A stretch of DNA of 64,000 bases from Clostridia bacterium (GTDB lineage: Bacteria; Bacillota; Clostridia; Lachnospirales; Anaerotignaceae), in contig JALCQR010000005.1 of the NCBI GenBank assembly GCA_022651385.1, positions 1 through 64,000 of the forward strand, written 5' to 3'. Positions 5,957 through 13,113 of this stretch are shown one piece after another. Numbering within the stretch: position 1 is the stretch's first letter; each line of letters starts with the position of its first letter. Position numbers and translations under genes: made by a program. Below the pieces are notes generated by a model that saw only the letters and a program-made list of their open reading frames with translations, searched no databases and was not told where the DNA came from.

Positions 5957-6373
5957 TTATTTTTCAATCATTACCCGGATCTTTGTCTTATCCGTCTTTT
6001 CCAGTGTGTCCTGATCAAGGCAGCGGAGACGTTCTGAACGGATCAGCGCATCCACAGCCGCTTTGCCGTAGCTGTCCAGCGACGCATACATCCGGAGCGT
6101 TTCCGAGTAGTCATCAGCTATTGCCCATCTTCCGAGCTGATCGATGCCTTCTTCTGAAAGTCTGGGAGAAGATGCATCCTCAGATCGTCCGGTCAGATAA
6201 TCAAGCCTGACGTCAAACAAATCGCATAACTCATTCAGTTTATCAAAATCCGGCATCCGCTTGTCTGTTTCCCACATGGCTACCGTTCCTTTTGATACGC
6301 CAAGATTATCTGCGAGCGTTACCTGCGTATAGCCGTTCTTTTTTCTCAGTTCTTTTAACCTTTCTCCTATCAT
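5957..6373 (-). CDS. XRE-family transcriptional repressor
   Basis: 138 residues with an N-terminal Cro/CI-type helix-turn-helix (GERLKELRKKNGYTQVTLAD...LGVSKGTVAMWE, residues 3-35) and a C-terminal helical dimerisation region. Its promoter faces away from that of the excisionase-primase operon, the classic switch layout of integrative elements. The recognition helix sits around SKGTVAMW. Candidate operator half-sites GTGAGA occur three times in the divergent region (about 6392, 6463, 6529). It lies directly upstream of mod, so it may also drive the R-M genes. Confidence 0.85.
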   Translation of the reverse strand: MIGERLKELRKKNGYTQVTLADNLGVSKGTVAMWETDKRMPDFDKLNELCDLFDVRLDYLTGRSEDASSPRLSEEGIDQLGRWAIADDYSETLRMYASLDSYGKAAVDALIRSERLRCLDQDTLEKTDKTKIRVMIEK

Positions 6374-6395
6374 AACGAATACCTCCTATGTGAGA

Positions 6396-6425
6396 ATAAT
6401 ATCCTATTTGATGTGCTTTCGTCAA
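6396..6425 (-). promoter_or_regulatory. promoter of the repressor (and possibly mod-res)
   Basis: On the minus strand: TTGACG, 18-nt spacer, TATTAT, then TAGGAGG and the repressor ATG. Close to the sigma-A consensus. Confidence 0.7.
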
Positions 6426-6475
6426 CCATATTTTATTTATTTGTAAATATTTATATTGTTTTTGTGAGATACGTG

Positions 6476-6504
6476 TTGACATAGGTAACGCATTGTGATA
6501 TTTT
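6476..6504 (+). promoter_or_regulatory. promoter of the xis-primase operon
   Basis: TTGACA, 17-nt spacer, TATTTT, facing the excisionase-like gene. GTGAGA motifs flank it at about 6463 and 6529 and are candidate repressor half-sites, so this is likely the lytic/excision promoter silenced by the XRE protein (inference). Confidence 0.65.
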
Positions 6505-6564
6505 CAAAATGTAAAATCTAACATATAGTGAGATTTTAAGATCAACAGAAAGGAGGAACGGGAA

Positions 6565-6744
6565 ATGGAGAAAACCACCATCAGTGTTCAGGAGATGGCC
6601 GCTGAAATGGGAATCAGCCTGCCGAAAGCATACGCCCTCGTCAAGGAACCGGACTTTCCGACGATCCGTGTTGGCAATCGGATTCTGATCCCGGTAGAAG
6701 CGTTTCATGAGTGGCTTGTAGTTGCTTCCAATAAGAAGAAATGA
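6565..6744 (+). CDS. excisionase-like small HTH protein
   Basis: 59 residues, start ATG after AAAGGAGG. The sequence (SVQEMAAEMGISLPKAYALV...FPTIRVGNRILIPVEAFHEW) is the HTH_17/excisionase winged-helix pattern that binds DNA near attachment sites or replication origins. It lies between the repressor and the primase gene, the usual place of a xis or regulatory gene in integrative elements. Confidence 0.8.
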   Translation: MEKTTISVQEMAAEMGISLPKAYALVKEPDFPTIRVGNRILIPVEAFHEWLVVASNKKK

Positions 6745-6781
6745 GTGCATCGAAGACGTCGGGGGAAAGGAGGAAAGGAAA

Positions 6782-10077: not shown

Positions 10078-10078
10078 T

Positions 10079-10999
10079 ATGGGTATCTATAACGCAGTCG
10101 GCGCGGCCTATGAGACCGCATTCTGGAAAACAATGAAAACACCTGTGGTGGATCGTGCCACCATGGAGAGCGGAAGAAGCGCGGATACAAACGCATACTA
10201 CCTTCCGCTCAATAGACAGGACGAAATGGAAAATGCTCTCGCGAACGAAGATGCATTCCGTCGTATTGCGACGTTCATCCGGGCATATGATCACGACAAC
10301 AGGATCCTCGCCTGTGACACAGAAGACACCGCTGGATTTATCAAAGAAGCAGAGGTAATCCCCGCCATCGATGGGCAGCCGGAGTTCTCCAAGGTGCCCA
10401 TTGACGTCCACAAACTGGCGGCCCTTGTCTCTTTCGATGAAGATTTTGTAAATGATTCTGCCTTTGACTTCCAGAAGTTCCTTCTGAGAAGGTTCGCCCG
10501 GGTTATGGGAAAAGGCGAAGAGAAAGCCTTCATCAACGGCACAGGCAGCGATGAGCCGACCGGCATTCTGCACGAAGAAAAAGGAGCCCCGGCTAATGTC
10601 GAGACATCGGCGTTTGCCTTCGATGACATCATCAAGCTGTACTTTTCCATTGAAGCCGAGTACCGGGATCATGGCACATGGCTGATGAACGACAAGACCG
10701 CCCTTACGCTCCGCTCCATGAAAGACAGCTCCGGGAACTACCTGTGGAGAGGATCAGACGATCTTCTCTTTGGCAAACCTGTTGTCGTTTCCAACTTTAT
10801 GCCGGATGCGGAGAGCGGGAAGTCTCCGGTTGTATTCGCAGATTTTTCCTACTACTGGATCATCTGCCGTAAGCCGGTGTCCGTCCGTGCTCTGCGTGAG
10901 CTTTATGCCCTGCAGAACAAGGTCGGCTTTGTCGGGACGGAATATCTGGACGGAAAGCTCATCCGCCGCAAGGCTGCCGGACGCATTCTGGTAAAGTAA
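10079..10999 (+). CDS. phage major capsid protein, HK97 fold
   Basis: 306 residues. The sequence follows the HK97-type major capsid pattern: an N-terminal arm (residues 1-45), then segments such as IATFIRAYDHDNRILACDT, the P-domain/spine region with VSFDEDFVNDSAFDFQKFL, FINGTGSDEPTGIL (about 160-173), WLMNDKTALTLRSMKD, FGKPVVVSNFMP and a C-terminal RRKAAGRILVK. No scaffolding delta-domain is fused at the N-terminus. The start ATG 10079 follows AAGAAGGGAG; the longer upstream frame overlaps the zinc-ribbon gene. No terminase, portal, protease or tail gene is present in the window, so this is a lone capsid gene on an otherwise non-phage-like element. Confidence 0.87.
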   Translation: MGIYNAVGAAYETAFWKTMKTPVVDRATMESGRSADTNAYYLPLNRQDEMENALANEDAFRRIATFIRAYDHDNRILACDTEDTAGFIKEAEVIPAIDGQPEFSKVPIDVHKLAALVSFDEDFVNDSAFDFQKFLLRRFARVMGKGEEKAFINGTGSDEPTGILHEEKGAPANVETSAFAFDDIIKLYFSIEAEYRDHGTWLMNDKTALTLRSMKDSSGNYLWRGSDDLLFGKPVVVSNFMPDAESGKSPVVFADFSYYWIICRKPVSVRALRELYALQNKVGFVGTEYLDGKLIRRKAAGRILVK

Positions 11000-11165
11000 T
11001 CGGCCCTTTCATGTCCTTTTCGGCGGAGAGCCTTTAATACCCCGTTTGAACTGGAAAAAAAGCACACGAGAGGGGACGGCGGTCTCCGGGATAATCCTGT
11101 ACCGAGATCTGACCCGCCCCTCCTGTTCCGTGCGGAAGAAATCTGAGCGAAAGGAGGAAAAGCGG

Positions 11166-11348
11166 ATGGATACTGAATCACGACACGTCACCGAGAGAAT
11201 CATCGGCGGCACTACCTACATTATCGAGTCGGTAGTCAGTGAATCCGCAAAAGAGACAGCCTATGACAAACTGAGAAAAATGATCGAAAACGAAGCCAAA
11301 CATATGACAATCAATGACAATACAGAGCCAAAAGAGAAAGCATCCTGA
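11166..11348 (+). CDS. TnpW-family transposon protein
   Basis: 60 residues after AAAGGAGG. ERIIGGTTYIIESVVSESAKETAYDKLRKMI is the hallmark of small TnpW-like proteins that lie next to TnpX/TndX recombinases in Tn4451-type elements (family knowledge). The function of TnpW is not established. It lies 74 nt before the recombinase gene, in the expected arrangement. Confidence 0.8.
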   Translation: MDTESRHVTERIIGGTTYIIESVVSESAKETAYDKLRKMIENEAKHMTINDNTEPKEKAS

Positions 11349-11421
11349 GACACTTGACTTCTCCGGCACTGGGAGGGATAGATAGACTACCCGCTTGAAG
11401 ACTGTCGGAAAGGAGGTAATC

Positions 11422-13089
11422 ATGATAAATACACTTGCAACAGCAAGACAGTCTTCTGCCGTACCGGAAAGCGAAAAGATCACAGCTTTGTACTGCCGCC
11501 TGTCACAGGACGATAAGTTGCAAGGCGATTCCAACTCCATCCGCAATCAGAAGATGATGCTGCAGAAATATGCGGATGAGAATGGATTCCCCAATACAGA
11601 GTTTTTCGTTGATGACGGCTTTTCCGGCACAAACTTTGACCGCCCGGACTGGAAACGTCTGATGACGCTTGTCGATGAAGACCGTGTGGGAACGATCATA
11701 GTAAAGGACATGAGCCGACTTGGAAGGGATTATCTAAAGGTCGGCATGTACACAGAGATGGTTTTCCCGAATGCGGATATTCGTTTCATCGCCATAAACA
11801 ACGGTGTCGACAGCGAAAGCAAGACAGAGAACGACATGACGCCGTTCATCAATATCTTCAATGAATTCTATGCCAAGGACACCAGCCGGAAGATCAAGGC
11901 AGTCAAGAAGGCCAAGGGCGAGTCAGGCAAACCGATCTGCTCGAATCCGCCCTACGGCTATATCAAAGATCCCGAGGATAAAAACCGATGGATCGTAGAT
12001 GAGGAGGCGGCAAAAAATGTGAAGGACGTATTCCAGCTGTGTATTCAGGGATATGGCGTGACAAAGATAGCAAACATCATGACAGAGCGGCACATCTTAA
12101 ATCCAAGCGCCTATGCCGAAGCACACGGAAGAAAAACGCCCACAAAGCGAATCTACACAGATAGTTATACCTGGACCACTCCAACGATTTCCAAAATGCT
12201 CTCACGCCCGGAATACCTCGGGCACACAGTGAATTTCAAGACCTACCATAAATCCTTCAAGAACAAGAAGACTTACTACAACGATCCAGATAAATGGAAA
12301 GTCTTTGAAAATACGCATGAAGCGATCATCGATCAGGACACTTTCGATATTGTGCAGCGTATCCGCCAAGGAAAGCGCAGGATGCAGCCAATCACGGATG
12401 AACCATCCATCCTTTCCGGTATGCTCTATTGCGGCGACTGTGGCCACAAAATGTACGTCAAACGTAAACGCGCTAAAGGGCCCGAGAACGACGCCTTTGT
12501 CTGCTCACAATATCGCCACTCCACAGGCGCCTGCACCTCACACCAGATCCGGGATAAGGTTGTAAAGCAGATCGTTCTGGATGATCTCCGCCGTGTGACT
12601 GCCTTTGCACGTGAGCACGAGGATGAGTTCGTGCAGATCGTCATGAAGCAGTCTGAATCCGACACAGACCGCGATCTTCGCAGACAGCGCAAAGAGCTGG
12701 AAGACGCTCAGAATCGAATGAATCGTCTGGACACTATCGTCAGTAAACTGTATGAAGATAACCTCGACGGTAAAATCTCCGATGAGCGTTTCGTGCGGAT
12801 GAGCGCCGGATATGACAACGAGCAGAAAGAATTGGAACAGCGGATCAAAGAGTTGAAGGCAGCCATCGGAAAAGAGGAGCAGCAGACTGTGGATGTGGAA
12901 CGGTTCCTTGCACTGGTACGGAAATACACAGATCTGCAGGAGCTAACCGCTGAGATCGTCCGGGAGTTCATTGAGAAAATCTATGTTTACCAGACACAAA
13001 CCATCAACGGGCATCGGGTCCGCCGCATAAAAATTGTCTACAACTGCATTGGAGCCTTCACTGCTCCGGAGCAAGAAAAAACGGTCTGA
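11422..13089 (+). CDS. large serine recombinase, TnpX/TndX type
   Basis: 555-residue site-specific recombinase predicted to integrate and excise the element. It has an N-terminal resolvase domain with YCRLSQDD (catalytic Ser28) and [11 protein letters not shown], then a recombinase domain, a zinc beta-ribbon ([13 protein letters not shown]...[11 protein letters not shown]) and a coiled-coil/DUF4368-like C-terminus. The start ATG 11422 has AAAGGAGG upstream; an earlier in-frame ATG at 11395 has none. It lies at the right edge of the GC-rich element, where the recombinase of such elements usually sits next to an attachment site. Confidence 0.93.
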
Positions 13090-13113
13090 AAGGCACTCAC
13101 TGCCGATCAGACC
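13083..13113 (+). terminator. terminator of the recombinase gene
   Basis: GGTCTG ... GGCA, loop, TGCC ... CAGACC overlaps the stop codon and is followed by ATTCTTT. A two-part stem with a weak U tract. Confidence 0.6.

Follow-up and report, generated by a model that had tools for sequence, protein, structure and literature searches.

Tn4451/TnpX-type elements are transposons without phage-type replication or capsid genes, and gene transfer agents (GTAs) of the Rhodobacter type are encoded by clusters comprising complete head and tail modules and are not known to move their own genes preferentially. P4-like satellites, phage-inducible chromosomal islands (PICIs), PICI-like elements (PLEs) and phage-inducible chromosomal minimalist islands (PICMIs) are described as reusing or resizing the capsid of a helper phage. 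Capsid-forming PICIs (cf-PICIs) are reported to encode a capsid protein, a protease, a portal, connectors and both terminase subunits (PMC10690885). Here we describe an element at the left end of a 64,000-nucleotide stretch of DNA from a Clostridia bacterium (assembly GCA_022651385.1, contig JALCQR010000005.1, positions 1 to 64,000; hereafter, the window). It belongs to a real and widespread family, the anatomy of which is well supported, and each member is a mobile integrative element with one virus-type shell protein, an HK97-type major capsid protein (MCP), without the parts that fill a head.

Like cf-PICIs, the element is of integrative satellite type with its own HK97-type capsid, and the capsid of the cf-PICI EcCI2 is among the nearest structures, but the capsid protein stands alone, with no protease, portal or terminase of the element's own. 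With P4-like satellites, PICIs, PLEs and PICMIs it shares a repressor, an excisionase-like protein (xis), a P4-family primase with origin repeats, an integrase and a small size; unlike them it brings its own MCP, and no capsid-size gene, small terminase subunit (TerS) or packaging site was identified in it. As in satellites, integrase, regulator and replication genes lie in a compact element with mapped ends. Encapsulins, too, have an HK97-fold shell protein encoded on its own, with neither the N-terminal delta region nor a portal or protease, but the MCP appears nearest to virion capsids by both sequence and structure and is carried by a replicating mobile element with no known cargo enzyme. 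The best structural match of the MCP is the capsid of the Rhodobacter-type GTA, whose full head and tail modules contrast with the lone capsid gene of the element. The large serine recombinase and the TnpW-type protein recall Tn4451; the initial annotation, made from the letters of the window, had already held that this is not a normal transposon of that type, and rightly so, since a primase, iterons and an MCP are present beside these two genes. The element also differs from Tn4451 by sitting in terminator-like hairpins with inverted-repeat ends.

For sampling the family, genome contigs were searched with the MCP or its alignment, giving 571 candidate stretches (527 confirmed, best 80 kept), and the same searches of viral contigs gave at least 600 candidates (586 confirmed, best 80 kept). 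Loci with a lone MCP (lone-type loci) numbered 105 with the window and 95 after removal of exact MCP duplicates, and 62 loci with prophage-type MCPs were used as controls. At 60 of the 95 loci the sequence extends for at least 3 kb to either side of the MCP; many loci are cut by contig ends. The gene order of the window, which the initial annotation had suggested looking for, recurs across distant hosts and on one complete plasmid, and terminase was found in 0 of the 95 loci. Gene clusters within 8 kb of the MCP included a serine recombinase in 74 loci, a primase in 70, a zinc-ribbon protein (ZnR) in 49 and, as a second cluster, in 5, TnpW in 38 and a tyrosine integrase in 12. By tblastn, ZnR was detected in 58 of the 95 loci, TnpW in 48, the small protein p92 in 34 and xis in 31, each being absent from all 62 controls. 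The tight coupling of ZnR and MCP that had been proposed from the window holds in part: ZnR often adjoins the MCP in these 58 loci (many of the 95 being cut by contig ends), but it was not found in every locus. Of 69 loci checked for iteron-like repeats, 36 have them behind the primase. An assembly artefact was considered and is excluded by the complete plasmid, single-contig genomes and isolates.

In a profile search of the 1,678 open reading frames (ORFs) of the 95 loci, no terminase, no portal and one protease, a chromosomal ClpP in locus L072, were found, while the same profiles matched terminase, portal and protease in 43, 51 and 50 of the 62 controls, respectively, which is partly so by construction. 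This agrees with the earlier statements that the window element is not a normal prophage and has no terminase, portal or protease gene. The initial annotation had also pointed to the DNA just left of the window as a place where terminase or portal genes might lie; the profiles found none in 15 kb of contig C14, which belongs to the window's genome, nor did they match anything in 13 further stretches including the Bacillus badius plasmid and this left flank. The only portal match in the window's genome is on contig C7, in an ordinary prophage with its own MCP and portal. Independent whole-genome Pfam searches left the portal unmatched in 34 and the large terminase subunit (TerL) unmatched in 33 of 50 element-holding genomes or records, and the portal unmatched in 4 of 10 others. 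Contig G398:C73 has a lone MCP at 4756-5673 and, about 43 kb away, an ordinary prophage with its portal at 48237.

The AlphaFold2 model of the MCP has a confident HK97 fold (predicted local distance difference test score, pLDDT, 90.8). In the structure comparison that had been suggested, Foldseek ranks virion-type capsids first: the nearest solved structures are the GTA capsid (E 8e-21, Z 21.5), the EcCI2 capsid (Z 21.2) and HK97, and encapsulins stand behind, their chains aligning at Z about 17 over model residues 1-304, N-terminal helix included. It was correctly noticed at the outset that the capsid lacks an N-terminal scaffolding domain: the delta region of about 80 residues of prophage relatives, which in HK97 is described as the scaffold/delta domain (PMC12749128), is absent. 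In lone MCPs the motif opening the mature coat protein has its median position at residue 15 (84 of 90 sequences), compared with a median of residue 95 in the controls (51 of 51 readable ones); median MCP lengths are 312 and 401, respectively. Lone MCPs thus begin near the mature N-terminus, without the delta region. N-terminal extensions of some MCPs were rejected as read-through by the ORF caller. In a tree of 172 MCP sequences obtained by quick search, one branch (SH-aLRT 100, length 0.76) separates the 90 lone rows, without exception, from 80 of the 82 rows labelled as prophage, and the stray rows L139 and L011 turned out to be lone-type elements. Between the window and L041, a close relative in a Lachnospiraceae metagenome-assembled genome (MAG), the ratio of replacement to silent substitution rates (dN/dS) is 0.13 for the MCP, 0.04 for the primase, 0.08 for the recombinase and 0 (no replacement) for ZnR. 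The MCP is under purifying selection, and this ratio and the separate clade of lone MCPs speak against a decaying capsid gene, a case that the initial annotation had kept in view. Prophage MCPs, which are abundant in the same hosts, are only about 33-38% identical to the window MCP. A fold search with ZnR (moderate model, pLDDT 77) gave no match at E <= 0.001; ZnR and p92 are candidates for encapsulin-style cargo by position only.

The window element is about 13.8 kb long, consisting of window 1-13155 and a left end on contig C14. A lone capsid gene in a compact integrative element had been proposed and this stands, but the extent of 7 kb was wrong, because the type III mod and res genes (1983-5941) and the left arm with DUF4314, DUF7698 and DUF7678 also belong to the element. 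The repressor, xis, P4-type primase, iterons, zinc ribbon, MCP, TnpW and serine recombinase that had been named are all present, according to profile scans, alignments and shuffles. Ten candidate genes of the window were scanned against Pfam, PHROGs and NCBIfam, and certain identities were obtained for the CI-type repressor, the xis-like protein, the P4-family primase, the HK97-type MCP and the large serine recombinase. The features are as follows, the loci L040, L041 and L215 of the Lachnospiraceae MAG being close relatives (MCP 90% identical).

1-299, plus strand: left0, C-terminal part of an amidoligase-like protein, 95% identical to residues 167-266 of a homologue of 266 amino acids (aa; L215:16064-16864), which matches PHROG 2443 amidoligase at 8.6e-53
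300-701, plus strand: protein with DUF4314 and DUF5049 (PF14192 1.2e-26, PF16468 8e-24), collinear in L215
787-1266, plus strand: DUF7698 protein (PF24753 4.4e-21), collinear in L215
1444-1671, plus strand: DUF7678 protein (PF24726 8.1e-26), collinear in L215
1983-4220, minus strand: type III restriction enzyme (Res), cargo (PF04851 4.5e-14; PADLOC REase_III), with a 74% identical counterpart in lone-MCP locus L108
4214-5941, minus strand: type III DNA methyltransferase (Mod), cargo (PADLOC MTase_III 7e-131), with a Mod-like gene in 8 of the 95 loci, window counted
5957-6373, minus strand: CI/Cro-type repressor (HTH_3 1.3e-15; PHROG 8 transcriptional regulator 7e-25)
6396-6504: divergent promoter-like sites between repressor and xis (consensus scan, 10/12 matches per strand)
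6565-6744, plus strand: excisionase-like helix-turn-helix (HTH) protein (TIGR01764 5.7e-10; HTH_17 1.4e-8)
6782-9064, plus strand: P4-family primase-helicase (TIGR01613 4.7e-50; PHROG 1829 1.9e-122)
9082-9365, both strands: iteron array with ten CTGTCAG, candidate replication origin
9449-9727, plus strand: p92, small protein without Pfam, PHROG or NCBIfam match
9745-10077, plus strand: ZnR, with C75, P76, C78, C99 and C102 invariant across 75 aligned rows
10079-10999, plus strand: HK97-type MCP without N-terminal delta region (PF05065 1.3e-58; TIGR01554 1.9e-65)
11166-11348, plus strand: TnpW-like small protein, 61% over 28 aa (E 5e-13) to a Bacillus badius gene labelled TnpW by RefSeq
11422-13089, plus strand: large serine recombinase (PF00239 Resolvase, PF07508 Recombinase, PF13408 Zn_ribbon_recom, PF14287 DUF4368)
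13131-13155: right end of the element, inverted-repeat motif GGGGTCCCTATGG; L040 and L041 are homologous up to 13155
13156-13195: right half of the target, terminator-like hairpin, adjoining tRNA-Arg(ccg) at 13184-13258 (minus strand)

CTGTCAG is found 14 times in the 64 kb, and 9082-9365 alone holds 10 of these copies, whereas 100 shuffles gave 3.7 on average and 7 at most. Promoter-like sites in the repressor-xis region number 12 against 8.0 +/- 2.1 in shuffles, a weak excess. The MCP starts at 10079, a longer open frame being read-through; the recombinase ORF 11395-13089 opens at TTG 11395; and the TnpW-like ORF of 60 aa has no PHROG or NCBIfam match. Window position 1 falls inside the amidoligase-like gene, residues 1-80 of which are encoded at the end of C14. 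From these two halves the C14-C5 join is probable, the missing stretch being about 256 bp by comparison with the relative. Homology with the relatives runs collinearly leftward to window 1 through the DUF and restriction genes, with interruptions by insertion sequences (IS) and partial loss of mod and res, and on the C14 side homology with the relative begins at L234:14751. In the isolate Selenomonas sp. F0473, the element has no gene to the left of the amidoligase-like one, beyond which lie unrelated chromosomal-type genes. A left border at the type III genes was dropped, since window 1-1926 aligns collinearly with a second genome and the Selenomonas element extends left as far as the amidoligase-like gene.

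Integration is best seen in Syntrophomonas wolfei subsp. methylbutyratica, in which a 12.6-kb element carries genes for a type I-like methyltransferase and its partner, an HTH protein, a protein of family C22, xis, primase, ZnR, MCP, TnpW and serine recombinase, and for which a complete genome of the same genus has a clean empty site. The junctions have a common 14-bp direct repeat, and the two ends form imperfect inverted repeats around TTAGGGATTT. The unoccupied site itself makes a perfect terminator-like hairpin (p 0.01). Immediately inside the left end, CTTCAAGCGG or close variants were seen by eye in five mapped elements, the window's own among them, the left end of which on C14 carries TTATTAGGGACCCC. 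Seven mapped elements (five loci by motif rule, plus L098 and the window element, the ends of the latter placed by homology) are 11.6-13.8 kb long. Joined flanks fold as terminator-like hairpins in six of the seven, the motif-rule loci being beaten by 0-3 of 100 shuffles and the window's flanks folding to -24 kcal/mol (p 0.015 vs shuffles), against 0 of 20 shifted control joins. Direct repeats between the window's right end and its left part were at chance level, and a DNA search for an empty site near the window's own flank among 40 relatives gave no sufficiently close relative. The flanks of the Acetivibrio empty site were rearranged and unusable, and no circular or terminally redundant contig was found among the sampled loci below 20.5 kb.

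What the left arm carries most often are restriction-modification families: among the longest ORFs of 57 loci, Pfam gave N6_Mtase 12, ResIII 12, Eco57I 10, DEAD 10, SWI2_SNF2 7 and HSDR_N 6 times, these families overlapping. The right side of 60 loci has scattered families, with two DNA_methylase matches as the only restriction type among the 25 listed. On the B. badius plasmid pPM400, an ATPase, type III res and mod, HTH protein, primase, MCP, TnpW and recombinase form one block, and the element is about 13.4 kb between mapped ends. Most hosts, judged by record title, belong to Bacillota, and Sphaerochaeta, a Spirochaetales MAG and Mycoplasmopsis gallinarum also occur; Bacteroidales and Prevotella hosts are MAGs that may be misbinned. 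In M. gallinarum (L106), a lone-capsid element lies at about 265-12970 downstream of ftsZ in a code-4 genome, and its GC content of 30-45% compares with mostly 20-33% in the flanks. Its primase, MCP and methyltransferase are full-length in the standard code and all 18 Trp codons are TGG; because the host reads TGA as Trp, this points to a recent import, which would fit horizontal spread. The family is a broad carrier of restriction-modification genes, with hosts as distant as Selenomonas, Bacillus, Syntrophomonas and Mycoplasmopsis. Lone-type capsid genes occur in 11 of 398 genomes sampled evenly across the phylum, about 1 species in 36, and the annotation "phage major capsid protein" in this family is therefore no evidence of a prophage.

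We favour the reading that the element is a phage satellite that makes its own shell and borrows portal, packaging and tail from a helper, to which we give a probability of roughly 0.45. The repressor would silence the element; once induced, it would be excised by the serine recombinase together with the xis-like protein, and the primase would copy the excised form from the iterons. The operon would yield ZnR together with an MCP already at its mature N-terminus, for which scaffold and protease would be unneeded, and a small shell of fixed size could form. Portal, terminase and tail would be provided by the helper phage, which is the weakest link, and the restriction-modification cargo would shield the host and shut out competing phages. 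If the shell encloses the element, this would be a stripped-down double-stranded DNA particle system and a test case for the origin of encapsulins from phage capsids. The sole hint of packaging is MT838964.1, a 4,712-base faecal phage record from Mexico with DNA 96.6% identical to the Blautia element L046; it presumably comes from a Mexican study of faecal virus-like particles, described as treated with chloroform and DNase (PMC8361208).

Several points weigh against the satellite reading or against the sample on which it is built, and contamination of the virome is a possible source of MT838964.1. Borrowing a helper's portal is not straightforward for an MCP without the delta region, HK97-type heads being assembled around the portal with the delta domain. 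In many element-holding genomes the portal was unmatched, so that a helper of this kind is frequently not resident, and no cos or pac site, small terminase, capsid-redirecting gene, capsid-size gene or helper was identified for the family. The presence of an MCP was the criterion for drawing loci; the terminase, portal and protease profiles were built from control clusters (PHROGs confirmed one member each); and the control L139 is itself a lone-MCP element, as is L011/L235, judged by their ORF lists and a profile search. Within 8 kb, the main primase cluster is missing in 25 and the serine-recombinase cluster in 21 of the 95 loci, in a context of 12 loci with a tyrosine integrase, some divergent primases and short loci. 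Iterons are insignificant in 33 of the 69 loci, L111 has no recognised primase or recombinase, the MCP of L114 contains a stop and the recombinase of L106 is split in two frames. The motif rules placed ends in just 5 loci per run (of 99 sources in one and 74 in another), the hairpin of L098 is insignificant (p 0.115), and L239, which is not mapped, is confined to about 8 kb by its neighbours, so that sizes may vary more widely.

A shell that needs no helper is a rather unlikely alternative, in which the MCP would self-assemble into a closed, portal-less or encapsulin-like compartment holding ZnR, or holding the element's own DNA with ZnR as the link to the shell. As in encapsulins, the delta region, protease, portal and terminase are lacking, encapsulin chains align also over the N-terminal helix of the MCP, and ZnR, with four invariant Cys, is encoded just upstream. 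Moreover, 12-14 kb falls between the volumes of T=3 (11.1 kb) and T=4 (17.1 kb) shells at HK97 density, as estimated by a scaling rule from the 39.7-kb genome of HK97. By Z and E-value, however, virion-type capsids come closest, ZnR was found in 58 of the 95 loci only (though some are cut short) and has no structural match, and no known cargo enzyme lies beside the MCP. Its DNA-holding form, a closed HK97 shell of coat protein born mature, with ZnR bridging to the DNA and the element's 12-14 kb enclosed by assembly rather than by a motor, seems very doubtful to us; if true, it would be an independent route from a phage capsid to a DNA-holding compartment.

The plentiful MCP relatives in prophages of the same hosts and the restriction-modification genes on the left arm could also be read as a defence island, in which the delta-less MCP is a decoy, a dominant-negative coat protein that spoils the heads of phages of the same type; satellites have been described as interfering with helper capsids. 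We consider such a decoy unlikely, since the divergence of the prophage MCPs makes co-assembly doubtful, and since the whole fold is kept and neither primase-iteron replication nor a narrow element size would be needed. That a decaying prophage left one head gene behind is extremely improbable. Genes of DUF4314 (29/62) and amidoligase-like genes (35/62, against 14/95 lone loci) are common to the prophage controls, but this origin was rejected on the constant gene order in distant hosts, the MCP dN/dS, the separate MCP clade, the precise insertion and the profile searches, which found no head genes besides the MCP in the 95 loci.

The family was not found in the open literature of PubMed Central (subscription papers and preprints are outside that scope) and is apparently undescribed. 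One report counted 107 gut sequences that are short (<20 kb), terminally redundant and furnished with HK97 capsid genes (PMC8530359); such elements could be among them.

Some further observations concern neighbouring and variable genes. On C14 (G000:C14; L234:12792-14536), the insertion site is bordered on its left by genes for a Ku-type protein and an ATP-dependent DNA ligase and then by an apparent integrase-gene end, all named by eye. L040 and L041 are two element copies about 39 kb apart on one contig (JAKVNF010000001), both interrupted by IS, and the L040 primase is split. The amidoligase-like protein that also occurs in ordinary prophages is encoded at L039:7881-8585 as well as at window 1-299. 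C22 (L035:5296-6255 and 21 further loci) is a divergent gene of about 320-400 aa adjoining the core; four members had no Pfam family, and PADLOC on three members gave weak matches only (E >= 0.0047). In L036, L070, L128 and L130, a variant has a tandem pair of serine recombinases and a small protein like sigma-70 region 4 downstream of the MCP.

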